The notes beneath the pieces are model-generated. The model was given only the letters and a program-made list of their open reading frames with translations. It did not search any database and was not told the DNA's origin. A stretch of DNA of 49,271 nucleotides, taken from assembly GCA_024276195.1 (NCBI GenBank), contig JAJRXR010000023.1, positions 1 to 49,271 of the forward strand. Reading direction: 5' to 3'. The DNA is from Planctomycetota bacterium (GTDB taxonomy: Bacteria; Planctomycetota; Phycisphaerae; Phycisphaerales; UBA1924). How positions within the stretch are numbered: the first letter of the stretch is position 1; the number at the start of each line of letters is the position of its first letter. This document shows, one piece after another, positions 1,354 through 33,384 of this stretch. Made by a program: the position numbers and the translations under genes.

Positions 1354-1354
<1 letters not shown>
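1037..1354 (-). CDS. atpZ: AtpZ/AtpI-family F0F1-ATPase accessory subunit
   Basis: This 105-residue protein has two membrane helices (about residues 12-30 and 41-60), the second following the loop DRYVFHTSPW. It ends in an acidic cytoplasmic tail rich in Asp and Glu. This matches AtpZ, a two-helix protein often encoded first in F-ATPase operons and linked in the literature to Mg2+/Ca2+ transport or assembly. Its ATG (1352-1354) overlaps the alaS stop codon by one base (TAATG), so it is probably translated by reinitiation after alaS. A 120-base gap separates it from the atpI-like gene downstream. Family assignment rests on topology and operon position. Confidence 0.75.
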
Positions 1355-4461
<3,107 letters not shown>

Positions 4462-4502: not shown

Positions 4503-4667
4503 TGGAGGGGAGGGCTTCCAGCCCTCCCTCACTCCCTGGAGGGGGTGGCTTCCAGCCGCCCCGTTCTTCGAGCGATCAAGAAAGTTCCGCGAATGACACT
4601 CGGGCGTGCGGGTGGGCTGGAAGCCCACCCCTCCAAGGAAAGAGAGGGTGGCTGGAAGCCCTCTCCT
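4503..4667. repeat. composite four-hairpin repeat element, copy 1
   Basis: Four short hairpins with the core GGCTTCCAGCC or its reverse complement lie at 4513-4523, 4547-4557, 4615-4625 and 4650-4660. The first two are in one orientation and the last two inverted, with centres 34, 68 and 35 bases apart. Stems reach about 8 bp with 3-base loops, and G-rich arms (GGAGGGG or its complement CCCCTCC) flank them. The 57-base central spacer aligns with the reverse complement of the spacer in the element at 11155-11329 at roughly three quarters identity. The element fills the divergent gap between alaS and holB. It resembles a REP/REPIN-type non-autonomous repeat; no associated transposase is in the window. 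Confidence 0.85.
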
Positions 4668-4686
4668 ACGGGGCTGGTCAACCCGC

Positions 4687-4692
4687 TACCCT
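4687..4692 (+). promoter_or_regulatory. putative -10 box (TACCCT) for leaderless holB
   Basis: TACCCT ends 8 bases before the holB ATG at 4701, and no Shine-Dalgarno sequence lies between. The spacing would place transcription initiation at or near the start codon. Confidence 0.4.
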
Positions 4693-4700
4693 CGGGGCGG

Positions 4701-5846
4701 ATGGGCAAGAAGAAGACCAAGACAACGCGGAAGCGGACGGTCCGAGTCCCCCAGGACGACTCGCCCAGAACCCGCCTGGAGACGCCCAGGCCGATCCCGC
4801 TGGACCTGGTGCTGGGCCAGCGCCGGGCGCACACGATCATGGACGCGACCCTGCGCTCGGGGCGGGTGCACCACGCCTGGATTTTCCACGGCCCCTCGGG
4901 CGTGGGCAAGTTCACCAGCGCCCTGGCCTTCGCGGGCGTGCTGCTCGACCCGACGAGCGAGGTGGGCCTGACCGGGGCGTTTGCGCCCGACCCGGACTCG
5001 CCCGTGCAGGCGATGCTGGCGCGGGGGGCTCACCCGGACCTGCACGTGGTTGTCAAGGAGCTCGCCCGGTTCAGTGACGACGCGAAGCTGCGCTCGCGCA
5101 AGCTCGCGTCGATCCCGCGGGGTGTGATCGACGAGCACCTGATCGGGCCGGCGGCGCTGCGGGCGACGACAGCTCCGGGCGGGCTGGCGTCCAAGGTCTT
5201 TATCGTGGACGAGGCGGAGCTGATGTCGGGCGTCGTGCAGAACACGGTGCTCAAGACGCTCGAGGAGCCGCCCGAGGGGACCGTGATCATCCTGGTGACG
5301 TCGAGCGAGGAGCGGCTGCTCCCGACGATCCGCTCGCGCTGCCAGCGTGTCACGTTCACGCCGCTTGATGACGGGGCGATGCGGGCGTGGCTCGATCAGA
5401 GCTCTTCTGAGATGGACCCGGAGCAGCGGCGTTGGCTCACGAGCTACAGCGCCAGCTCGCCCGGGCGCTTCGTCCGTGCGTTCGAGGGCGGGATGTACGC
5501 GTGGCACCAAGCGGTCGAGCCCATGCTCAGCGAGCTCGACCGCGGGGGGTACCCGCTGGCGCTGGGCGGGGCGATGTCGTCGTTTGTTGATGACTGGGCC
5601 AAGGTGTGGGTCAAGCAGGGCGACCCGCTGGGCGAGAACCGCTCGAAGGACAACGCGAATCGGATCGGGGCGCGCCGGATGCTGGCGCTCGTGGGCGAGC
5701 ACTACCGCTTGCAGCTGGGCGATGAGGCGCAGCGCGAGCGTGCGGCGGACGCGATCGACCGCGTCGCGCAGGCCGAGAGCACGCTGGCGTCCAACGTGCA
5801 GGTGCAGTTTGTGATGGACGAGCTTGTCGCGGGCCTGGCGCGCTAG
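4701..5846 (+). CDS. holB: DNA polymerase III delta'-like clamp-loader ATPase
   Basis: This 381-residue AAA+ protein resembles the delta' subunit of the DNA polymerase III clamp loader, which helps place the sliding clamp on DNA. A basic N-terminal tail (MGKKKTKTTRK) is followed by the Walker A motif GPSGVGKF near residue 66. Then come AHPDLHVV, a Walker B-like VFIVDEAELM, a sensor region, and the conserved Arg-finger region IRSRCQRV. The four Cys of the usual zinc module of gamma/delta' subunits are not visible, so that module is lost or replaced. I chose ATG 4701 rather than the longer open frame from 4437, because the extension would read through the hairpin repeat. The gene converges on fliS with 12 bases between stops. 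Confidence 0.85.
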   Translation: MGKKKTKTTRKRTVRVPQDDSPRTRLETPRPIPLDLVLGQRRAHTIMDATLRSGRVHHAWIFHGPSGVGKFTSALAFAGVLLDPTSEVGLTGAFAPDPDSPVQAMLARGAHPDLHVVVKELARFSDDAKLRSRKLASIPRGVIDEHLIGPAALRATTAPGGLASKVFIVDEAELMSGVVQNTVLKTLEEPPEGTVIILVTSSEERLLPTIRSRCQRVTFTPLDDGAMRAWLDQSSSEMDPEQRRWLTSYSASSPGRFVRAFEGGMYAWHQAVEPMLSELDRGGYPLALGGAMSSFVDDWAKVWVKQGDPLGENRSKDNANRIGARRMLALVGEHYRLQLGDEAQRERAADAIDRVAQAESTLASNVQVQFVMDELVAGLAR

Positions 5847-5858
5847 CTAAGCCCGGCG

Positions 5859-6335
5859 TCAGGCCTGAACGCTCAGCGATGAGCCCGAGTCAAACCCCGA
5901 GTCGAAGCCGGGGGCGACCTGCTGGGGTTGAGCCTGAGGCGGGGTCGTTTCGCCCTTGTTGGTCAGCTCTTCGAGCAGGAGCTTCCAGGTCTCGACCTCG
6001 TACTCGAGCAGCTCGATGATCTTGCCCACGCGGGCCGGGTCTTTTTGGAAGCTGGCCTCGACGAGTTCCTGGTAGAAGAACGTGTAGAGGCTCTGGACCC
6101 GCTCGCCCAGCTCGGGGTTGGCTTCGGGTCGGATGGTGTTGATGAGTTCGAGGATGATGTTGCGGCACTGGGTGAAGCCGCTGTGGGCGATCTCGTGGTC
6201 GGCGCGCTCGAGGCCGTCCTTGGCCTGGCGGGCGAAGCGGACGGAGCCCTCGAGCAGCAGCATGCGCAGCTGCTCGGGGCTGGCGGTCATCACCTGGGTG
6301 GTCAGGTACGCGTTGGCGGTGTTGTTCTCACTCAT
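5859..6335 (-). CDS. fliS: flagellar export chaperone FliS
   Basis: FliS binds the disordered C-terminus of flagellin in the cytosol and prevents premature polymerisation before export. The 158-residue protein has the family's all-helical character: NAYLTTQVMTASPEQLRMLLLEG, then a helix with the ARQAKDGLERAD pattern, and SLYTFFYQELVEAS. After about residue 120 it carries a Pro/Gln/Gly/Ser-rich tail not needed for the fold, which makes it slightly longer than usual (~130). Start ATG at 6333-6335; an upstream in-frame ATG at 6356 is less likely. It lies 57 bases downstream of fliD on the same strand, the classic fliD-fliS order. Confidence 0.93.
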   Translation of the reverse strand: MSENNTANAYLTTQVMTASPEQLRMLLLEGSVRFARQAKDGLERADHEIAHSGFTQCRNIILELINTIRPEANPELGERVQSLYTFFYQELVEASFQKDPARVGKIIELLEYEVETWKLLLEELTNKGETTPPQAQPQQVAPGFDSGFDSGSSLSVQA

Positions 6336-6392
6336 CGCCGGCGATATCGGCCTCACGGGGGCGGCGCTGAAGGCGGACGCCCGGTTTCTGTG

Positions 6393-9254
6393 TTATCCGA
6401 CGCTGCCGATCGAGCCGAGCGTCGCGTTCATGGACTGGAGCTGCCCGATCGCCTTTTCCATCGCCAGGAACTGGCGCCCGAGGACGACCCGCCGGTTCTC
6501 GAGCTTGAGGTTGATGAACTCGATCCGGTCCTGCTGGAGCTGGATCTGGCGGTCGAGCGAGTCGCGTTTGGCCGTGAACACGCCGCCGATCGAGCTGATG
6601 TACCGGTTGGCGAACTCCTCGAGCTTGACGACGGCGCCCAGCTCCGTGAACTCCGTCACGGCGTCCGGGTCGTTGATGGTCACGCCCTCGACCACCGTGG
6701 TCCCGCTGTCGGGGTCGATGGTCCGCCTGCTGAACATATCCTGCACGGCCTGGGGGTCCTGGTCGAACGCCTCGCGGAAGCGGTCGCGGTCGAAGGTGAG
6801 CGTGCCGCCCTCGCCGATGGTGATTCCGACCTCGGCCAGGTTGTTGAAGGTGTCCTGGAAGCCCTCGTTCTCGCCGAGAATTTCTCTGTAGAGCGCCGAG
6901 CGGAGAGAGATGGCGGTGCCGTCGCCCAGGAGCGGCCCGCGGGCGCCGGTGTCCTCGTCGTAGCGGGTCTGGAGCGCGATGCGCCCGACAACATCGTTGA
7001 AGGCGTCGATGAGGGTCTGGATATCGCCCTCGATCTGCTCGTTGTTCTTTGTGATCGTCAGCTCGATCGGGTCGGCGCCTGTCGAGTTGAGGTCGATCGT
7101 CACGCCCGTGAGGACCGAGTCGAGCGTGTTCGAGTCGCTCTGGAGCAGGACGCCCTGGGCGGGGTTGGTCGAGCCGAAGAAGACGATGGCGTCGTCGCCC
7201 TCGCTGAGGACATCGAGCCCGAGGTCGAACCCGTTGGTGTCGAGGGTGAAGCGTCCGGCGGCGCCGGTGTTCTCGCTGATGAAGCTCAGGCGGTTGGCGG
7301 CGCCCCCGTCCCCGGTGTTGAGGATCGAGACGCTGACGCCCGCCTCGGAGGCGTTGATGGCCTGGACGACATCATCGAGCGTGTCGGCGGGGTCGAAGGT
7401 GAGCGTCACCTCGAACGAGCCGTCGAGGCGGTTGAGTCCAGAGTCGGTGGACTCGGACTCGCCGGCGATGCGCAGGTCACGCGCGATCGTGCCCTCGGTG
7501 TCGGCGACGATGATCGCGACGCTCCCGCCCAGGTTGTCGTCGGGCTCGCTGATGAGCAAGCCATCGCCCGTGGAGTTGATCGAGGCGCTGATGCGCGATC
7601 CGGCGGCGTTGGCCTGGCCGTTGATCTCGTCGATGAGGTCGCCCAGCGAGACGGTGTCGTCGCCGACATCGACGGTGAAGACAGAGCCGTTGGAGTCGGT
7701 GAACTCGATCTTGCCCGGGTTGATGCCGGCGCCGTTGTTGAGGTCGCTCAGGCGGGTGGACTCGGAGATGTAGCGGAGCTGGAGCGAGCCGGAGTCGATC
7801 GAGGTCTCGGTGACGCCCCCGGCTCCGGTGTCGAGGCCCAGGTCGGCGGCGGTGGTATCGGCGCTGGTGACGATGAGGGCGCCGCCGCCCCCGGAGGTGT
7901 CCGTGAGGCTGAAGCCGGTGCCGACAGCGCTGAGCGAGACGCTGATCCCGGCGCCCGCAGTGTTGGAGGCGGCGTTGATCGCGTCGAGGATGCCCTGGGT
8001 GGTGGTCAGCCCGGAGGTGTCAACGTTGAACGAGACGCCGTTGCGGTCGGTGATGTTGAGCGTGCCCTGAGAGGCGAGGCCTGCGCCGCCGTTGAGACTG
8101 GAGATGAGCGTCTCGTTGAGCCCGGCAAGGATACGCCGCCCGCTGACGGTGGTGTCGGTGAAGGTGGTGTCGGTGGTGATGCCGAGGTCGCGGGCGGCAG
8201 TAGCGCCGTTCTCGGTGAAGATCAGATCGCGCCCGGCGGTGTTGGAGAAATCGATGGCGCCGGTGGCCGCGTTGATGGAAGCGGCGACGGTGGTGACGCC
8301 TGCGGCGGTGAGCGCGTCGTTGATGCGTTGGACAGCGCCACCGAGCGTGGAGACGGCGGCCTCGGTGATCTCGAGTTCTTCTTCGTTGAGTATGTAGACA
8401 TCGCCGAGGTTGACCTCGACGACGACGCCGTTGACATCGATCTTGAAGTCGTGGCGGTTCTCGCCGACGCCCGAGTTCAGGCCCACGCCGGTGCCGTCGT
8501 TGAGGCTCCCGAGCGCGGTATTCGCGTTGAGGGTGTAGACGTCCGAGCCGGTGAGGGCGCCTGCGGAGGAGCCCTCGATGCCGAGGGAGGTGGCGGTCTG
8601 GTCGAGGCCGACGTTGGAGACGGTGATGTACTGGAGCGCGGAGCTGGTCGTGAGGACGAAGGCGCCGCCCTTGATGCTCGCGGTGACGCCGGCGCCGGAG
8701 GAGTTGATCGTGTCGAGCACATCGCTGACGGTCGCGGCCCGGGAGAGATCAACCTCGACGGGGCCGGAGCCGGTGTCGATGGAGATCGTGCCACGGTCGA
8801 TGCCCGAGCTGTCGTTGAGCAGGGCGAGGGCGGTGTCGCGGTCGAGGCGTCCGCGCCAGTCCTCGAATGTGAGCTGGTCGATGCCGGTCGCGGAGGAGTC
8901 GGTGTCGGTGAAGCCGCGCGAGAGGAGCTGGCGCGAGGTGACGAGGCGATCGACAAGGAACGTGTACGAGCCCTGGAGCGAGTCGGTCCCGGCGACGGCG
9001 CTGAGCACGTCCGGGCTGGAGCTGGTCGCGGTTTTGGCCAGGAACGAGAGGCTGGTGCGGAAGTTCGACGCGGCGTTCTTGAGCGTGCCCATCCGCGAGT
9101 TGAGGTCCAGGTAAGCCGCCTGCTGGGTCTGGAGCTGGATCAGGCGTCGCTCGGCGAGCTGGCGCGGGCGGGCCTCGATCGAGAGGAGCTGCTCGATGAG
9201 CGTGGCGCTGTCGATGCCGCTGAAGATGCCGATGCCCGTCGTGATGCCGCTCAT
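6393..9254 (-). CDS. fliD: flagellar filament cap protein FliD (hook-associated protein 2), enlarged
   Basis: FliD forms the cap at the filament tip that folds incoming flagellin. The N-terminal FliD_N region is clear (GIFSGIDSATLIEQLLSIEA, then a helical QQAAYLDLNSRMGTLKNAA). The C-terminal region has helical coiled-coil character (SIGGVFTAKRDSLDRQIQLQ). At 953 residues it is well above the usual 400-700. The middle (about residues 100-680) holds several repeats of the flagellin hook-IN type, each with a D-L-x-D-I-N/I-N-A signature (ISDVLDTINSSGAGV-like, LGDLIDEINGQANAAG, LDDVVQAINASEAGV). A GGAAGGGA ribosome site precedes the ATG. It is followed by fliS, and a 69-codon ORF lies 22 bases upstream. 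Confidence 0.95.
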   Translation of the reverse strand: MSGITTGIGIFSGIDSATLIEQLLSIEARPRQLAERRLIQLQTQQAAYLDLNSRMGTLKNAASNFRTSLSFLAKTATSSSPDVLSAVAGTDSLQGSYTFLVDRLVTSRQLLSRGFTDTDSSATGIDQLTFEDWRGRLDRDTALALLNDSSGIDRGTISIDTGSGPVEVDLSRAATVSDVLDTINSSGAGVTASIKGGAFVLTTSSALQYITVSNVGLDQTATSLGIEGSSAGALTGSDVYTLNANTALGSLNDGTGVGLNSGVGENRHDFKIDVNGVVVEVNLGDVYILNEEELEITEAAVSTLGGAVQRINDALTAAGVTTVAASINAATGAIDFSNTAGRDLIFTENGATAARDLGITTDTTFTDTTVSGRRILAGLNETLISSLNGGAGLASQGTLNITDRNGVSFNVDTSGLTTTQGILDAINAASNTAGAGISVSLSAVGTGFSLTDTSGGGGALIVTSADTTAADLGLDTGAGGVTETSIDSGSLQLRYISESTRLSDLNNGAGINPGKIEFTDSNGSVFTVDVGDDTVSLGDLIDEINGQANAAGSRISASINSTGDGLLISEPDDNLGGSVAIIVADTEGTIARDLRIAGESESTDSGLNRLDGSFEVTLTFDPADTLDDVVQAINASEAGVSVSILNTGDGGAANRLSFISENTGAAGRFTLDTNGFDLGLDVLSEGDDAIVFFGSTNPAQGVLLQSDSNTLDSVLTGVTIDLNSTGADPIELTITKNNEQIEGDIQTLIDAFNDVVGRIALQTRYDEDTGARGPLLGDGTAISLRSALYREILGENEGFQDTFNNLAEVGITIGEGGTLTFDRDRFREAFDQDPQAVQDMFSRRTIDPDSGTTVVEGVTINDPDAVTEFTELGAVVKLEEFANRYISSIGGVFTAKRDSLDRQIQLQQDRIEFINLKLENRRVVLGRQFLAMEKAIGQLQSMNATLGSIGSVG

Positions 9255-9276
9255 CGCGGGTCCCTTCCTCGCTCGT

Positions 9277-9486
9277 TCAGAGCGTGTGGGCGCTGCCCGC
9301 GCGGGCGACGCCCCATCCGATGCCGCTGGGTCCGCCCTCGCGCCGGCACGGGCGGTCGAGCCCGGACGAGCGGAGTCGCAGACAGTCCGCAGCCCACGCG
9401 CCCAGGACGCGCCGGTACTTCCGCTGCGCCTCGCGCCGGGCGAGCTCGCCCGAGGGGTCCGGTCTCTGGTTGCGCTGCGACATCAT
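9277..9486 (-). CDS. small basic protein upstream of fliD, unknown
   Basis: This 69-residue ORF ends 22 bases before the fliD start. It begins MMSQRNQRPDPSGELA and is rich in Arg, with a helical stretch (RREAQRKYRRVLGAWAADCL). About nine codons in ten end in G or C, as expected for a real gene here. A GGAG sequence sits about 9 bases before the ATG at 9484-9486. I do not recognise a family. Position suggests co-transcription with fliD and fliS, so a small flagellar accessory role is possible but is only inference. The remaining gap from 9487 to 9706 shows no further gene. Confidence 0.5.
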   Translation of the reverse strand: MMSQRNQRPDPSGELARREAQRKYRRVLGAWAADCLRLRSSGLDRPCRREGGPSGIGWGVARAGSAHTL

Positions 9487-9691
9487 CCAAGAGCTCCACG
9501 AGGGGCACGCCCGAAGTCCAGATCGGCCCCTCCGTCGATTCACCTGCAATCCGTCCGCCCCATCCGGACGGGCAGCGGGGCGAACGCGCAGCTATCGGCT
9601 GGACATGGGCGAGACTTGCCCGAACCCGAGCGATCGGCGCAATATCCGCGCCCAAGCCCGAACCGGGCGATCTGATCGGGAGATCGGGACG

Positions 9692-9697
9692 TAGTAT
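9692..9697 (+). promoter_or_regulatory. putative -10 box (TAGTAT) before the 9707 gene
   Basis: TAGTAT ends 9 bases before ATG 9707, and no Shine-Dalgarno sequence is seen between them. Confidence 0.35.
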
Positions 9698-9706
9698 CGC
9701 GGACCG

Positions 9707-10378
9707 ATGGCCGATCAGAGCGTCATGACCCGTCAGCTGCCACCCCCGTCGCCCGCGCTGCGCCGAGCGGTCCTGGTTCTTTCTCTGCTCCTGGGCGCCA
9801 GCTCACTGGCGGGTCTGGGCTTGGCGCTGATGGGAACCAGCTCGATCATCATCGGCATGCTCGGGTTTGAGGTGGTTGTGCTCGTCTCCGCGGTGATCGC
9901 GATCCTGTGCGGGCTCGGGCGGTTCACCAACGGCTACGCGATGGCCCTCGCCTGCGCCGCAGGGACGGCGCTGGGGGCGACGCTGCTCGGGTTTCTCGAC
10001 GCGCGCCCGAACTTCGTATCGAGCCCGGACATGGCCCGCGTGCTGCGCGGGATTGTGATGGCGCGTGTGCTGATCGCCGTGGCGCTGGGGGCGCTGGGCG
10101 CTCTGGCGGTTTTCTCGCGGAACAGCTCGTCGTGGGGGAGCCTCGGGCGAGGACTGCTCATGGCGGCCCCGGTGGTCATCTCTGGCGTGCTCCTTGCGAT
10201 GTTCGGCAAGGGCTGGCTGACCGTCCCGCGCGACGGCGCGTTCGAAGCGGTCCGCATCGGCTCGATTGTGCTCGGCGCGTTCGTGCTCGGCGGGTTCTTC
10301 TCCGCCAGTGTCCATCTGGTCATCCGGGCGTTCCAGAGCGGCGATATCGACCGAATGCCCGAGAACGACAGCGCCTGA
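9707..10378 (+). CDS. polytopic membrane protein, unknown function
   Basis: This 223-residue protein has about six hydrophobic segments (roughly residues 20-40, 45-67, 73-98, 113-135, 148-168 and 183-206) and short polar termini. The last residues (GDIDRMPENDSA) are polar and probably cytoplasmic. I see no conserved catalytic motif and do not recognise the family. It is the first of two plus-strand genes; the DUF4230 gene follows after 76 bases that contain a GC-rich hairpin. The start ATG is supported by the nearby TAGTAT box, although an in-frame ATG six codons later is possible. Confidence 0.7.
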   Translation: MADQSVMTRQLPPPSPALRRAVLVLSLLLGASSLAGLGLALMGTSSIIIGMLGFEVVVLVSAVIAILCGLGRFTNGYAMALACAAGTALGATLLGFLDARPNFVSSPDMARVLRGIVMARVLIAVALGALGALAVFSRNSSSWGSLGRGLLMAAPVVISGVLLAMFGKGWLTVPRDGAFEAVRIGSIVLGAFVLGGFFSASVHLVIRAFQSGDIDRMPENDSA

Positions 10379-10406
10379 ACCCCGCTGGGGCGGTCTGAGG
10401 GCATCT

Positions 10407-10438
10407 GGCGCCCCGCGTGTGGAACACGGGCGGGCGCC
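10407..10438. terminator. GC-rich hairpin between membrane protein and DUF4230 gene
   Basis: GGCGCCC and GGGCGCC arms, extended by GTGT/ACAC, enclose a 3-base loop. No U-run follows, so it could be an attenuating or processing hairpin rather than a true intrinsic terminator. Confidence 0.3.
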
Positions 10439-10454
10439 TTCCGAATAATCAATC

Positions 10455-11135
10455 ATGCTTGGAGACCCACTCGCGACTCTCGTTGTTTTCGCCGGCGCTG
10501 TCTGTCTGGGCGGCCTGGTTGTGTTCTTTGCGCAGCGGTTCTTCCGCTCGGGCAAGGCGTCGCCGCAGACGACGACCGACCTGCGCCTGATCACGGAGCG
10601 CGTGCGCGCCGTGGGCAAGCTCGTCGGGCTGGAGGTCCACGCGAAGGAGATCGCGACAGCCAAGCGCGGGTGGGCGTGGATGCCCCCGATTCTGCTCAGC
10701 CAGGCCAAGCTCGCGATGATCTTCCAGTTTGAGAAGCAGTACTCGGTGGAGCTTGGGGTCATCACGCCCGACAGCGTCGAGGAGATCGCCCCGGGCGAGT
10801 TCTGCCTGCGCCTGCCGGCGATCCAGGGCTCGCTGCGCCTCGTGGATGTCAAGCCGTACGACATCCAGCAGGGGCGTGTGCTCGGGCTGATCGATGTGAT
10901 CTCAATGAATGCGGAACGCCAGGGCGAGCTGATGAAGGTCGCCCAGGAGCAGGCGGCGGAGCTGTTCGACCGCTCGGACGAGCGGTACAGCGCCCAGGCC
11001 CGCGACGCGATCGAGCGCCAGCTTCGCTCGCTGCTGGGGTTGTTCGAGATCAATCTCGATATCGCGTGGGCCAAGCCAGCGACGACGGTGCAGCCGCGCG
11101 TGGTGCTGGACCAGGAAGCGACCATCGTCAGCTAG
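10455..11135 (+). CDS. DUF4230 domain-containing membrane-anchored protein
   Basis: The 226-residue protein has one N-terminal membrane helix (about residues 5-26), then a soluble part beginning TTTDLRLITERVRAVGKLVGLEVHAKEI. A VELGVITPDSVEEIAPGEFCLRLP segment and a helical C-terminal part with ARDAIERQLRSLLGLF follow. This arrangement matches DUF4230, a widespread family of unknown function anchored at the membrane. The start is the ATG right after an AT-rich stretch at the end of the upstream hairpin region. The second copy of the composite hairpin repeat begins 20 bases after its stop codon. Family call is from memory of the motif pattern. Confidence 0.72.
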   Translation: MLGDPLATLVVFAGAVCLGGLVVFFAQRFFRSGKASPQTTTDLRLITERVRAVGKLVGLEVHAKEIATAKRGWAWMPPILLSQAKLAMIFQFEKQYSVELGVITPDSVEEIAPGEFCLRLPAIQGSLRLVDVKPYDIQQGRVLGLIDVISMNAERQGELMKVAQEQAAELFDRSDERYSAQARDAIERQLRSLLGLFEINLDIAWAKPATTVQPRVVLDQEATIVS

Positions 11136-11154
11136 ATCGAAAGTCACCAGCGCC

Positions 11155-11329
11155 CGGAGGGGATGGCTTCGAGCCCTCCCAAAGAACATTGGAGGGGTGG
11201 GCTTCCAGCCCACCCGGGCGCCCGGGGTGTCAAGCGCGGACCATTGCATAGTCGCTTGAAGAACGGTGTGGCTGGAAGCCACACGCTCCCGGGGAATGGA
11301 ACGGTGTGGCTGGAAGCCACACCCTCCGG
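11155..11329. repeat. composite four-hairpin repeat element, copy 2 (inverted relative to copy 1)
   Basis: Hairpin cores lie at 11165-11175, 11200-11210, 11270-11280 and 11308-11318: two in one orientation, then two inverted, with centres 35, 70 and 38 bases apart. This is nearly the same geometry as at 4503-4667. The reverse complement of the 59-base central spacer aligns with the copy 1 spacer in about 44 of 59 columns, including CCGTTCTTC, TCCGCG and TGACAC. The two copies are therefore the same element in opposite orientations. It fills the gap between the convergent DUF4230 and ALDH-like genes. Confidence 0.85.
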
Positions 11330-11337
11330 GGGATGGG

Positions 11338-12186
11338 TCAGGTCGCGCTCGGGTGCCAGATCGTTTTCATCTCGAGGAACGGTTCGATCCACCACGGGTC
11401 TTCGCAGGCGTTGTCGTCGGTCCAGTCGATGCCTTCGCGGAGCGTGACGCGCTTGAGGTTCGTTGCGCTGCCCTCGCGCAGGATCCGGGCCTGGTCATCG
11501 CTGAGCCCGCCCGCGTGGATCGCGTCGAGCTCGGAGTGCGACGAGAAGTGGGGGGCGAGTTCGTCGCGGAAGCCGGTGAGGATGTTGACGACGCCTCCGG
11601 GCAGGTCGCTCGTCGCCAGGGCCTCAGCCAGCACGCACGGCGCGATCGGGCTCGACTCGCTGGCGAGCACCACACAACTCGACCCGCCCGCGATCACCGG
11701 CGCCACGAGCGAGACAAGCCCGAGCAGCGAGGGCTCGTCCGGGCAGATCACGCCCACAACGCCGACGGCCTCGGGGACCGTGAAGTTGTGGTACGGACCC
11801 GAAACCGGGTTAGCGCACCCGAGTACTTGGGGATATTTGTCGCACCAGCCGGCGTAATGAACCACGCGGTCGATCGAGCGGGCGACCTCGGCGTCAGCGT
11901 CAGTCCCGGTGAGCGCCGCCGCGAGTTCCGCCCGCTTGCCCTCCATCATCTCGCCCAGGCGGTAGAGGATCTGTCCGCGCAGATAGGCGGTTGAGCCCGC
12001 CCAGGCGGGCTGGGCCTTGCGGGCCGCCTCGACCGCGTCGCGCAGATCCTTGCGGCTCGCGTGACAGACGTACGCCTCGGGCGCATCCCCATCGCCCACG
12101 GGTGTGACGCGCCCGGACTCGGAGCGCGGGAACGTGCCCCCGATGAGCAGCTTGTAGGTTTTGGTGACGCTTAGACGTTCGCCCAT
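11338..12186 (-). CDS. truncated, non-catalytic aldehyde dehydrogenase-like protein
   Basis: This 282-residue protein aligns with the NAD-binding half of aldehyde dehydrogenases (YKLLIGGTFPRSESGR, RVVHYAGWCDKYPQ, EAVGVVGVICPDEPSLL, DLPGGVVNILTG). It stops soon after the position of the catalytic Glu, which reads NLKRVTLREG. The catalytic Cys domain is absent, so it should be inactive alone. The motif YAGWCDK is shared with the full ALDH at 13497-15026. Together with deoC nearby this resembles the two ALDH domains of ALDH16, whose second domain is also non-catalytic. A GGGGAG ribosome site inside the end of the SIMPL gene supports ATG 12184-12186. It probably acts as a partner subunit of the full ALDH; this is inference. 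Confidence 0.8.
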   Translation of the reverse strand: MGERLSVTKTYKLLIGGTFPRSESGRVTPVGDGDAPEAYVCHASRKDLRDAVEAARKAQPAWAGSTAYLRGQILYRLGEMMEGKRAELAAALTGTDADAEVARSIDRVVHYAGWCDKYPQVLGCANPVSGPYHNFTVPEAVGVVGVICPDEPSLLGLVSLVAPVIAGGSSCVVLASESSPIAPCVLAEALATSDLPGGVVNILTGFRDELAPHFSSHSELDAIHAGGLSDDQARILREGSATNLKRVTLREGIDWTDDNACEDPWWIEPFLEMKTIWHPSAT

Positions 12187-12190
12187 CGGC

Positions 12191-12943
12191 TCACTCCCCG
12201 ACCTTGCAGTCCATGGTGACGCGGGCGCGGACGATGATCTTGCCGCCCTCGATGGGTGTCGCCGACGCAGCGTCCATTGACGGCATGTCGTAGCTCTCGA
12301 TGCCCCGCTGCATGATCGGCCTGGGCGGCTCGGCGCCGTGCTCGGTGACACGCACAACGCGCATCTCGCCCAGGCCCAGCTCGGACGCGATGACCTGCGC
12401 CTTGCGCTTGCCCTCGCTGACGGCCATCCGCAGCGCCTCGCGCTCCGCCTCGGCGCGGTTTTGCAGCATGAACGTCACACCAAACCCCTGGTTCGCCTCG
12501 TGCGACAACCCAACGTCCATGACGCGTCCGACCTGCGAAACATCATCCACCTGCACGCTGATGGTGTTGCTGGCGCGGTAGCCGGTGACGCGGGGCGCCT
12601 TGTTGCGCGGGCGGTCGTAGATCGGATGGATCGAGATCGAGGCGGTCTGGATGACCGTGCCGACGATCTTCAGATCGCGCACGTCCTCGATGATCTGCCC
12701 GAGCACCCGGTTGACCCGGTGCTGGGCCTCGCCGGCGGTGTCGCCCTCGAAAACAGCCCCCAGAACGACCTGCGCCCGGTCAGGCTCGAGCGCAAGCTCG
12801 CCCACGCCGACGACGCTCAGATCGCACACGACCGAGCTGGCCTGGGGCTGAGCGGTCGGAGCCGGGGCGGGCGTGTGTGTCGCCGCGACAGCGCCGAAAA
12901 GCGCGGCGGAGCCGAGGGTCGCGGTGAGGAGGGAGGTCTTCAT
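12191..12943 (-). CDS. SIMPL (DUF541) domain periplasmic/secreted protein
   Basis: The protein starts with a signal peptide (MKTSLLTATLGSAALFGAVAA) and a Pro/Ala linker. It continues into a SIMPL domain: VVGVGELALEPDRAQVVLGAVFEG, GYRASNTISVQVDDVSQVGRVMD, and the helix AVSEGKRKAQVIASELGLG. Family members such as E. coli YggE are linked to oxidative-stress tolerance, though the biochemical role is unclear. The ATG overlaps the GNAT stop codon (TGATG); a GTG one codon earlier is also possible. The last bases provide the ribosome site for the truncated ALDH-like gene, so the three genes look co-transcribed. Confidence 0.85.
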   Translation of the reverse strand: MKTSLLTATLGSAALFGAVAATHTPAPAPTAQPQASSVVCDLSVVGVGELALEPDRAQVVLGAVFEGDTAGEAQHRVNRVLGQIIEDVRDLKIVGTVIQTASISIHPIYDRPRNKAPRVTGYRASNTISVQVDDVSQVGRVMDVGLSHEANQGFGVTFMLQNRAEAEREALRMAVSEGKRKAQVIASELGLGEMRVVRVTEHGAEPPRPIMQRGIESYDMPSMDAASATPIEGGKIIVRARVTMDCKVGE

Positions 12944-31785: not shown

Positions 31786-33384
31786 ATGGGGCCAACGCGC
31801 CAGGGGCAGAGACCGATGCAAGGCCCGGGGGGAGTCCCGCGCGGGATGGACGCGGTGCAGCGCGCGTACGGGCAGTTTCAGCAGGGGCGGGTGCGTCCGG
31901 CGATGAAAGAGCTGAAGGCGCTGCTTGCCAAGGCGCCCTCACCCCAGGCGGAGCAGAAGGGGCGTCACCTGTATGGCGCGTGCCTGGTGCGCGAGGGGTT
32001 TCACGCGCAGGCTGCTGAGCAGATCGGGCGCTCGGCGGAGATGGCGCCCCGGGATCTGCAGGTGCAGTACGACTGGGCGCAGGCGCTGCAGTTCTCGGCG
32101 CAGATCGACAAGAGCGAGCGTGTGGTCCGCAAGCTGCTCAAGGTGAAGGCGGACTACCCGGAGGCGATCGGCCTGCTCGCGAGCCTGCTCCAGTCGCGGG
32201 GCAAGCATGAGGAGGCGGTCGAGGTCATCGACGACGCCATCGGACGCGGCATCGGGCACCCGGCGATCGCGATCGCCCTGGCCGGTTCGGCCAGGCGGGT
32301 CGGGCGAGAGACGGAAGCCATCGAGCGGCTTCAGGCGGTCGGGGCGAACGCGGCGCTGCCCTCGAATGTACGCCAAGAAGCGATGTTTCAGTGCGCCGCG
32401 CTGCTGGACTCGCTCAAACAACGCGACGAAGCCTTCGAGCACTACGAGAGAGCGCACGGGCTGGTGAGCGCGACCTACGACCCGCGCGTCACGGCCCGCG
32501 ACACGGACGAGATGATCCGGGAGTGGACGCCCGGGGCGATCGCGGGCGGGGCGCCGGGGCGCGATCTGGATGAGACGCCGATCTTTATTGTGGGCATGCC
32601 GCGGTCGGGGACGACGCTGGTGGAGAACATCCTGGGCGCGCACCCGGGGGTCTACGCGGCGGGCGAGCAGATGAAGATGGCGACGGTGTACCGCGTGCTG
32701 ATCCACAAGCCGGGGCAAGGGCAGGGGGGAGGGCTGGCGCAGGGCATCAAGGGGCTTGATGAGCGCCTCGTCGCGGCGGGGGCGCAGGAGTACCTCTCGC
32801 ACATCAAGAAGCTGGCGCCGGGGGCGCAGCGGGTGGTGGACAAGCACCCGTTCAACTTTCTGCACCTGGGGCTGATCGCAAAGTTGTTCCCGGGGGCGCG
32901 TGTGATCCACACCATCCGGGATCCGCGCGACACGTGCTTGTCGTGCTACATGCGAAACTTTCTCAACGCGATGCCGTACACGACGAACCAGCGCTGGCTC
33001 GGGTCGTTCTACCGCGAGTACGTCCGCCTGATGGAGCACTGGCGGGAGGCGCTGCCCGGCGATCCGGTGGGGCTTCGGTTCATGGAAATTCGGTACGAGG
33101 ACGTGATCGCGGACCAGGAGGGCGCCAGCCGTCGGCTGATCGAGTTTGCGGGGCTGGAATGGGACGAGGGCGTGATGCGGTTCCACGAGAAGCCGAGGCA
33201 CGCGCCGACGCTGAATGTGGATCAGGTGGGGCGCCCGGTGTACGCGTCGTCGGTGGCCAAGTGGCGGCGGTACGAGAAGCACATCGGGGTGCTGCTCGGG
33301 GAGCTTGAGCCTGTGCTCGGGGGCCTGGGCTATGCGGATAGCGATGGCAGCGGGCAGGGCGGCGGGGAGGGGCAATCGCCCTGA
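31786..33384 (+). CDS. TPR-containing sulfotransferase
   Basis: This 532-residue protein couples an N-terminal set of TPR-like helical repeats (about residues 20-235, for example QKGRHLYGACLVREGFHAQA, KSERVVRKLLKVKADYPEA and RDEAFEHYERAHGLV) to a sulfotransferase domain. The PAPS 5'-phosphosulfate loop is PIFIVGMPRSGTTLVENIL near residue 266. The 3'-phosphate motif is RVIHTIRDPRDTCLSCY. The acceptor is unknown; similar enzymes modify proteins or polysaccharides. The start is uncertain: ATG 31786, or later ATGs at 31816 and 31846. It is third in the mnmA group. Confidence 0.86.
   Translation: MGPTRQGQRPMQGPGGVPRGMDAVQRAYGQFQQGRVRPAMKELKALLAKAPSPQAEQKGRHLYGACLVREGFHAQAAEQIGRSAEMAPRDLQVQYDWAQALQFSAQIDKSERVVRKLLKVKADYPEAIGLLASLLQSRGKHEEAVEVIDDAIGRGIGHPAIAIALAGSARRVGRETEAIERLQAVGANAALPSNVRQEAMFQCAALLDSLKQRDEAFEHYERAHGLVSATYDPRVTARDTDEMIREWTPGAIAGGAPGRDLDETPIFIVGMPRSGTTLVENILGAHPGVYAAGEQMKMATVYRVLIHKPGQGQGGGLAQGIKGLDERLVAAGAQEYLSHIKKLAPGAQRVVDKHPFNFLHLGLIAKLFPGARVIHTIRDPRDTCLSCYMRNFLNAMPYTTNQRWLGSFYREYVRLMEHWREALPGDPVGLRFMEIRYEDVIADQEGASRRLIEFAGLEWDEGVMRFHEKPRHAPTLNVDQVGRPVYASSVAKWRRYEKHIGVLLGELEPVLGGLGYADSDGSGQGGGEGQSP

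Follow-up and report, generated by a model that had tools for sequence, protein, structure and literature searches.

The 49,271-nucleotide stretch analysed here (the window; contig JAJRXR010000023.1 of assembly GCA_024276195.1, from a planctomycetote of the Phycisphaerales) carries two groups of short DNA hairpins, site 1 (4503–4670) and site 2 (11155–11328). We interpret them as two clusters of REPINs, that is, of repetitive extragenic palindromic (REP) sequences arranged as inverted doublets, drawn from a REP family with a GGAG tag, and we consider it probable that they are spread by a REP-associated tyrosine transposase (RAYT) encoded in frame inside the housekeeping gene rdgB, where it sits as a homing-like cassette. 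The window clusters belong to a known kind of repeat with an unusual tag; the nested transposase is what makes this REP/RAYT system new, and possibly a new class of element.

The GGAG-tagged REP family and the RAYT nested in rdgB

Each site contains four GGCTTCCAGCC-type hairpins, two forward followed by two inverted, with cores at 4513, 4547, 4615 (−) and 4650 (−) in site 1 (spacings 34/68/35) and at 11165, 11200, 11270 (−) and 11308 (−) in site 2 (35/70/38), which reproduces the eight positions and the spacings reported in an earlier note on this DNA. A window scan allowing one mismatch returned nine core matches, eight of them the site hairpins (expected 1.77; 0 of 100 shuffles reached nine). 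The core at 11165 is the variant GGCTTCGAGCC, and the stem of the hairpin at 4650 is imperfect. The same note had proposed that the central spacers are homologous in opposite orientation, and this holds: 36 of 49 columns align after one spacer is reverse-complemented, with a score of 21 against −1.8 ± 3.0 for 1,000 dinucleotide shuffles, none of which scored as high, and −4.5 in the wrong orientation. The features are as follows.

4503..4528, plus strand: REP 1 of site 1; tag TGGAG, 9-bp stem, loop TCC
4537..4562, plus strand: REP 2 of site 1; tag TGGAG
4563..4609, no strand: central spacer of site 1; homologous to the site 2 spacer and recognisable in the sister genome G002
4610..4635, minus strand: REP 3 of site 1; tag TGGAG
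4645..4670, minus strand: REP 4 of site 1; imperfect stem, tag GTAG
11155..11180, plus strand: REP 1 of site 2; tag CGGAG, core GGCTTCGAGCC
11190..11215, plus strand: REP 2 of site 2; tag TGGAG
11216..11264, no strand: central spacer of site 2; matches the site 1 spacer after reverse complementation
11265..11290, minus strand: REP 3 of site 2; tag GGGAG
11303..11328, minus strand: REP 4 of site 2; tag CGGAG

The genome of origin (G000, a 3.04-Mb draft in 88 contigs) holds 69 copies of the exact core against five of the reversed pattern, so the repeat is dispersed and not confined to the window, as the earlier note's description of a REPIN-like element would have it. Most of the 69 are built as YGGAG, five variable bases, GGCT-TCC-AGCC and five further bases, and the variable arms of the 9-bp stem covary, pairing in 318 of 345 cells where re-dealt arms average 222 and reach at most 243. 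The 5' tag is GGAG in 57 cores, GGTG in six, GTAG in one and another sequence in five; a conserved tag on many dispersed palindromes is what characterises a REP family, and here GGAG dominates in place of the classical GT[AG]G. With looser rules (core with at most two mismatches, an allowed tag and at least three of five arm pairs), the own-genome stretches in which clusters were counted, which contain all 69 exact cores, yield 83 REPs in 56 clusters: 35 singles, 12 +−, three ++−, three −−, and one each of ++, +++ and ++−−. Seven of these cores are foreign, six from a valS-type REP (GGCGTCCCGCC) and one of another type, and their removal leaves 76 REPs in 53 clusters with nine +− doublets; strict criteria drop the degenerate fourth REP of site 1, which is then scored ++−. 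Neither count contains a −+ cluster, which means that mixed clusters always have their tags facing outward, the arrangement of REPINs. The inverted doublets of REPINs also fold together across their spacer, and single-strand folding of both sites beats that of shuffles (z −7.3 for site 1 and −5.0 for site 2; 0 of 200 shuffles each), the predicted fold of site 1 being one long nested hairpin in which REP 1 pairs with REP 4 and REP 2 with REP 3. One stretch of about 11 kb (L042, C25:1403-12497) carries seven same-strand single REPs of one subtype with GGTGG arms.

A profile search for the transposase family PF01797 (Y1_Tnp) up to E 10 found no match on the window's contig, in keeping with the earlier remark that no transposase is nearby, and six matches in G000. 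One of them, at C39:6246-6530, has a forward GGAG-REP of the window's own family on one side (6081) and an inverted one on the other (6607); a RAYT flanked by the same hairpins is what the earlier note had suggested seeking. A gene flanked by cognate REPs that are dispersed in the genome is the arrangement of a REPtron, and judged from sequence the C39 RAYT is likely to be the cognate transposase of the window REPs. The idea of a non-autonomous element relying on a RAYT elsewhere stands insofar as such a RAYT is present, and its action on the window elements is what we regard as probable.

The open frame at C39 has 402 codons and reads, in order, the N-terminal half of RdgB, a REP-coded linker, the RAYT, a second REP-coded linker and the C-terminal half of RdgB. 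Between the left REP and the RAYT domain the 31 in-frame codons include no ATG, GTG or TTG, the earliest of these being the ATG of the histidine–hydrophobic–histidine (HuH) motif itself, and the frame passes through the right REP with no stop. Because it has neither a start before the HuH motif nor a stop of its own, the RAYT as sequenced can be whole only within an RdgB-RAYT-RdgB polypeptide. The C39 copy was the sole rdgB match in the own-genome search, which detected no second rdgB. RAYTs are also nested in frame in leuS (C64; L032/L064) and in valS (C7; L034, at a contig end), with GTAG- and GTGG-tagged REPs, each locus having its own REP type; the other three PF01797 matches lie in short frames of 162–198 residues. 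Translated in frame, REPs of L034 and L110 give recurring peptides, GTGVPPV and HGRDARATR among them.

Nested RAYTs in related genomes

Among 37 genomes of the family, GGAGN5GGCTTCCAGCC occurs in four, the own genome included (57, 10, 27 and 8 copies), and its reversed control in none of the 37. All four (G000, G001, G002 and G020) have an rdgB-nested RAYT. A RAYT-filled rdgB is found together with no GGAG-REP in G015, G017, G028 and G036, and junction REPs of other types were read in the last three; in the congeneric G003 (60% complete) rdgB is empty and no GGAG-REPs occur. Five other nested RAYTs are bounded by REPs that are likewise dispersed in their genomes. The valS-type REP GTGGCACGGGCGTCCCGCC is present in 33 copies in G000 and 15 in G002, in both of which valS holds a RAYT bounded by GTGGCACGGGCGTCCCGCC, and in one to three copies in seven other genomes, and GTGGGAYSGGCTTCCAGCC in 15, 8 and 6 copies (4, 2 and 2 of them located at the cassette) in G017, G019 and G020, genomes with nested RAYTs bounded by such REPs, with four copies in G036 and one or two in three others.

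A wider set of 61 genomes, comprising the own genome and 60 relatives, was surveyed for Y1_Tnp at E 0.001, and at least 47 of them had a match among those listed; 35 of the listed matches, chosen mainly for long frames, were analysed. Counting the three nested own-genome loci and G015, in-frame RAYTs in this set lie in RdgB (eight, one cut by a contig end), leucyl-tRNA synthetase (LeuRS, five) and valyl-tRNA synthetase (ValRS, nine, three partial). Inverted repeats of at least 18 nt mark the junctions of 19 of the 21 nested loci examined, and L119, at a contig end, has none. Pfam gave Y1_Tnp and no recognised host in L109, L124-L129, L131-L135, L137 and L138, apart from a weak DUF6027 match in L128; L136, L139 and L140 lay outside this host scan. 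The LeuRS editing domain has a single match in each of the five LeuRS-nested genomes, within the RAYT's frame, and the ValRS C-terminal domain a single match in each of the nine ValRS-nested genomes, in the RAYT's frame in six and on another contig in G000 and G047. In L110 (G002 C9, about 32670-32765) the valS frame comes to an end past the RAYT, near a further REP copy.

With 18 nested RAYTs as query, 190 of 392 genomes of the phylum gave a match. From 460 relatives on named contigs we analysed the best 80, which, the query having been made from nested RAYTs, do not form a census: 67 lie in frames that reach at least 380 residues or continue past the locus end (18 do so), and the other 13 are short and stand alone. 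Sequence titles in this set include Planctomycetota and Verrucomicrobiota among others. BLAST against RdgB, ValRS and LeuRS references, or Pfam, identified hosts for 60 of the 67, some from one side only, in most such cases owing to a locus end: ValRS 18, RdgB 14, PurH 7, a class I synthetase of isoleucyl (IleRS) type 5, restriction-modification (R-M)/DUF1156 proteins 5, RecG 4, alanyl-tRNA synthetase (AlaRS) 3, MetH 2, DnaK 1 and PriA 1. The host scan left out seven long frames (L272, L281, L282, L286, L297, L299 and L307), and the R-M/DUF1156 frames L244, L253, L283, L277 and L295, with junction scores of 0, 15, 0, 23 and 13, are not relied on. Junction inverted repeats scoring at least 15 were found at 61 of the 67 nested RAYTs against 1 of 208 displaced controls. 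In 28 of 61 nested cassettes there is no ATG, GTG or TTG between the left REP and the domain; a stop precedes the right REP in 9 of 10 stand-alone cases, a feature whose absence from nested cases is partly definitional.

At rdgB, occupied and empty sites can be compared directly. The gene is present in 34 of the 37 family genomes, uninterrupted in 24 (G003 among them), cut by a contig end in G035, and interrupted at Ham1 positions 122–127 in nine (G000, G001, G002, G015, G017, G020, G022, G028 and G036). All inserts align to one turn, between VLAxP and VLA..RG, which reads VLAVAGGTVLATVRG in G003. The G022 gene (L196) has at this turn a short in-frame segment with no RAYT, perhaps a decayed cassette. 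On a tree of host residues the eight RAYT-filled genes need seven changes against 7.3 for shuffled labels, a scattered occupancy. On the RAYT tree (35 rows, seven stand-alone rows of 42 being excluded as too divergent or with an unplaceable motif) host-gene labels change five times against 19.6 when shuffled; the LeuRS-nested RAYTs form one group, the class-3-like ValRS-nested RAYTs another, and the RdgB-nested RAYTs need two changes. RAYTs that sort by host gene, together with scattered rdgB occupancy, suggest from these trees repeated, site-specific gain or loss, deep branches being weakly supported. In L106, L107, L108 and L114 the RAYT in ValRS belongs to another class (NHVH, YVxEQ-like) that resembles class 3 of PMC6006769, and it sits almost where the class-2-like RAYTs do, an apparent convergence of two classes on one site.

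Selection on the nested RAYTs is purifying. The ratio of nonsynonymous to synonymous rates (dN/dS) is 0.375, 0.167 and 0.402 for the rdgB-nested RAYT in three congeneric pairs (host halves 0.145–0.294), and 0.186 for the valS-nested RAYT (host 0.119). All 18 class-2-like nested RAYTs compared keep the HuH and tyrosine residues unchanged, and all 13 RdgB-RAYT fusions keep these residues and also the conserved RdgB motifs, which we take to be catalytic. In a structural model of the G001 fusion (L231) the RAYT domain is well predicted and matches 4er8 with a template-modelling (TM) score of 0.70, the REP-coded linkers are disordered, and the RdgB fold can be superposed on RdgB structures from one side of the insert to the other (2q16, TM 0.78 by target). 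By sequence, too, the nearest solved structure to the nested domain is TnpA-REP 4er8 (E 4.7e-10, versus 2.1e-4 for 2xm3).

Setting and history of the two sites

The genes on either side of site 1 diverge, and those on either side of site 2 converge.

1354..4461, minus strand: alanyl-tRNA synthetase gene (Pfam and translation); start 41 bases from site 1; no RAYT
4701..5846, plus strand: DNA polymerase III delta'-like gene (Pfam); divergent neighbour of site 1
10455..11135, plus strand: DUF4230 gene (Pfam); converges on site 2
11338..12357, minus strand: aldehyde-dehydrogenase-family gene (Pfam); converges on site 2

The window AlaRS (1034 residues) was suspected from its length to be a RAYT host, and Pfam and the translation show no RAYT in it; by eye it carries very roughly 70 extra residues near the RAYT position of L284. 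A terminator reading of the sites was rejected, no terminator-like site having been found at either.

The sister genome G002 is 81% identical in DNA over the window region. At its site 1 the spacer, REP 2 and REP 4 are still recognisable. Its site 2 lacks such a hairpin, has 66 bases between the flanking alignments versus 204 in the window, and gives no match to the GGAG-REP pattern. G001 fails as an orthologous comparison for site 1, where it has different genes, and carries another REP type at site 2. On the simplest reading, site 1 is the older, and site 2 was either gained in the lineage of G000 with the spacer of site 1 or lost in G002.

Proposed mechanism, alternatives and significance

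In the mechanism that we propose, the fused RAYT, its HuH and tyrosine residues intact, would cut and rejoin single-stranded REP and REPIN DNA in trans, and this action would spread the REPINs, those of the window included. The REP-RAYT-REP cassette would itself be a site-specific, homing-like parasite of permissive loops in conserved enzymes. It would borrow the promoter and start codon of its host, and a frameshift or stop in the cassette would also break the host enzyme, shielding the cassette from decay; the REP-coded linkers would let both proteins fold. The strategy may be likened to that of an intein, with no known splicing. The odds seem to us slightly to favour a broader claim as well, that REP-bounded RAYT cassettes are an unrecognised class of mobile element that homes into fixed housekeeping positions, is translated with its host and mobilises genome-wide REPINs.

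Several observations weigh against this explanation. The pairing of REPs with RAYTs is drawn from association in sequence; contig ends truncate the rdgB of G020, whose junction REPs are therefore not comparable, and GTGGCACGGGCGTCCCGCC also occurs in 19 copies in G016, where nesting was left unchecked. The LeuRS case L118 has a junction repeat of 11 nt only. Given a query of nested RAYTs and a choice of the best 80 of 460, the 67 of 80 overstates the share of nesting among all RAYTs. Stand-alone RAYTs have flanking junction repeats as well (10 of 13, against 0 of 41 displaced controls), so REP flanks do not set the nested RAYTs apart. A possible start codon lies between the left REP and the domain in 33 of the 61 nested cassettes. 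The valS gene of G000 is split over contigs, and that of G002 is interrupted in frame after the RAYT, with the C-terminal domain further along the contig in another frame; the near genomes are drafts. Just three of the seven occupancy changes are forced by well-supported branches. Between G001 and its congeners the rdgB-nested RAYT is 64–65% identical and the RdgB parts 79–87%, which indicates that the RAYT evolves faster or was re-acquired. The L231 model is moderate overall (mean per-residue confidence, pLDDT, 71.7; predicted TM score, pTM, 0.50). Finally, rdgB alone is not known to be essential in Escherichia coli, which makes the shielding argument stronger for leuS and valS than for rdgB.

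The best-surviving alternative, which we nevertheless hold to be unlikely, is that the nested RAYT is no parasite and has been domesticated as an insertion domain serving the host enzyme or the cell. The purifying selection described above fits this reading, and PMC8049555 and PMC6006769 portray RAYTs as domesticated and passed on vertically; against it, the hosts are unrelated (synthetases, RdgB, PurH, RecG, MetH), at least two RAYT classes are involved, 24 of the 34 sampled rdgB genes have no RAYT, and terminal REPs mark the nested unit as a cassette. Somewhat less likely again are ordinary REPIN clusters, or bacterial interspersed mosaic elements (BIMEs), kept for a role in RNA or DNA such as mRNA 3' protection or service as binding sites, the nested RAYT being incidental. 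A place between convergent genes, as at site 2, is a usual location for REPs, both sites fold strongly as single strands, and REPs are thought often to be transcribed (PMC3733652), but site 1 lies between divergent genes, neither site is terminator-like, site 2 is missing in G002, and the presence of GGAG-REPs coincides with a nested RAYT in 4 of 37 genomes.

We think it improbable that the four-hairpin composite is a distinct element of its own, amplified like a miniature inverted-repeat transposable element. The two window copies do share 165–175 bp including the spacer, and BLAST matches at C84 (76%) and C12 (71%) also extend across it. In shuffle tests, though, 798 of 1,000 shuffles did as well as the forward C84 spacer, the reversed C84 spacer gave a weak signal (5 of 1,000 for site 1, 40 of 1,000 for site 2), and the C12 tests gave 55, 475, 520 and 574 of 1,000. 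The spacer is convincingly common to just the two window sites, and the other clusters are of other make-up (35 of 56 single, 12 +−), so the composite element of the earlier note was given up; with the C84 and C12 tests unconvincing, we call the four-hairpin unit a REPIN cluster. Least probable of all is that the cassette is spliced out like an intein, or bypassed, before the host enzyme works, for which its in-frame seat at conserved positions of core enzymes speaks, as in inteins, and against which stand the lack of any intein-type domain in the Pfam results for the scanned frames (E 0.01; E 1e-5) and the predicted disorder of the REP-coded linkers.

Our preferred reading, of REPINs mobilised by a RAYT cassette nested in a host enzyme, places the system close to the REPtron, in which RAYTs (TnpA-REP) accompany REPs, REPINs and BIMEs. 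The two share tagged hairpins, inverted doublets and a RAYT flanked by the same REPs; here, however, the tag is GGAG and not GT[AG]G, the RAYT is in frame inside a housekeeping gene and lacks both a start and a stop of its own, and one and the same position is filled in some related genomes and empty in others. Conserved positions of core enzymes are likewise occupied in frame by inteins and homing endonuclease elements, with patchy occupancy and an internal DNA-cutting domain, whereas here no splicing domain is seen, the element is an HuH transposase with DNA hairpin ends, and the host protein seems to remain interrupted. In IS200/IS605 insertion sequences, too, a Y1 HuH transposase goes with hairpins at the ends. 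Those ends are in the same sense, while here the end hairpins are inverted, the domain is RAYT-like and IS200-type transposases are weaker matches. RAYT classes 2.6 and 3 are described in PMC6006769 as lacking a GT[AG]G consensus. In-frame insertions of Rickettsia palindromic elements and of REPs within genes are already known (PMC3733652); there the palindrome alone is inserted, here a whole transposase.

In the literature searched, coverage of which leaves out most subscription journals and preprints, we recognised no report of RAYTs in frame in tRNA synthetases, RdgB or other hosts. A REPIN copied into a gene is modelled in PMC8049555 as destroying that gene. According to PMC6006769, a small number of proteins longer than expected were set aside as fusions or annotation errors, and nested RAYTs may in this way have been filtered out before.

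In-frame cassettes in synthetases, RdgB, PurH and RecG, taken with the empty alleles of relatives, would count as evidence that RAYTs are mobile, and they are natural cases of large insertions tolerated by core enzymes. Nested cassettes would also offer a concrete mechanism of maintenance and bear on how RAYTs and REPINs persist: if our reading is true, nesting in genes that can hardly be lost would explain the persistence of a single-copy transposase and of its REPINs.

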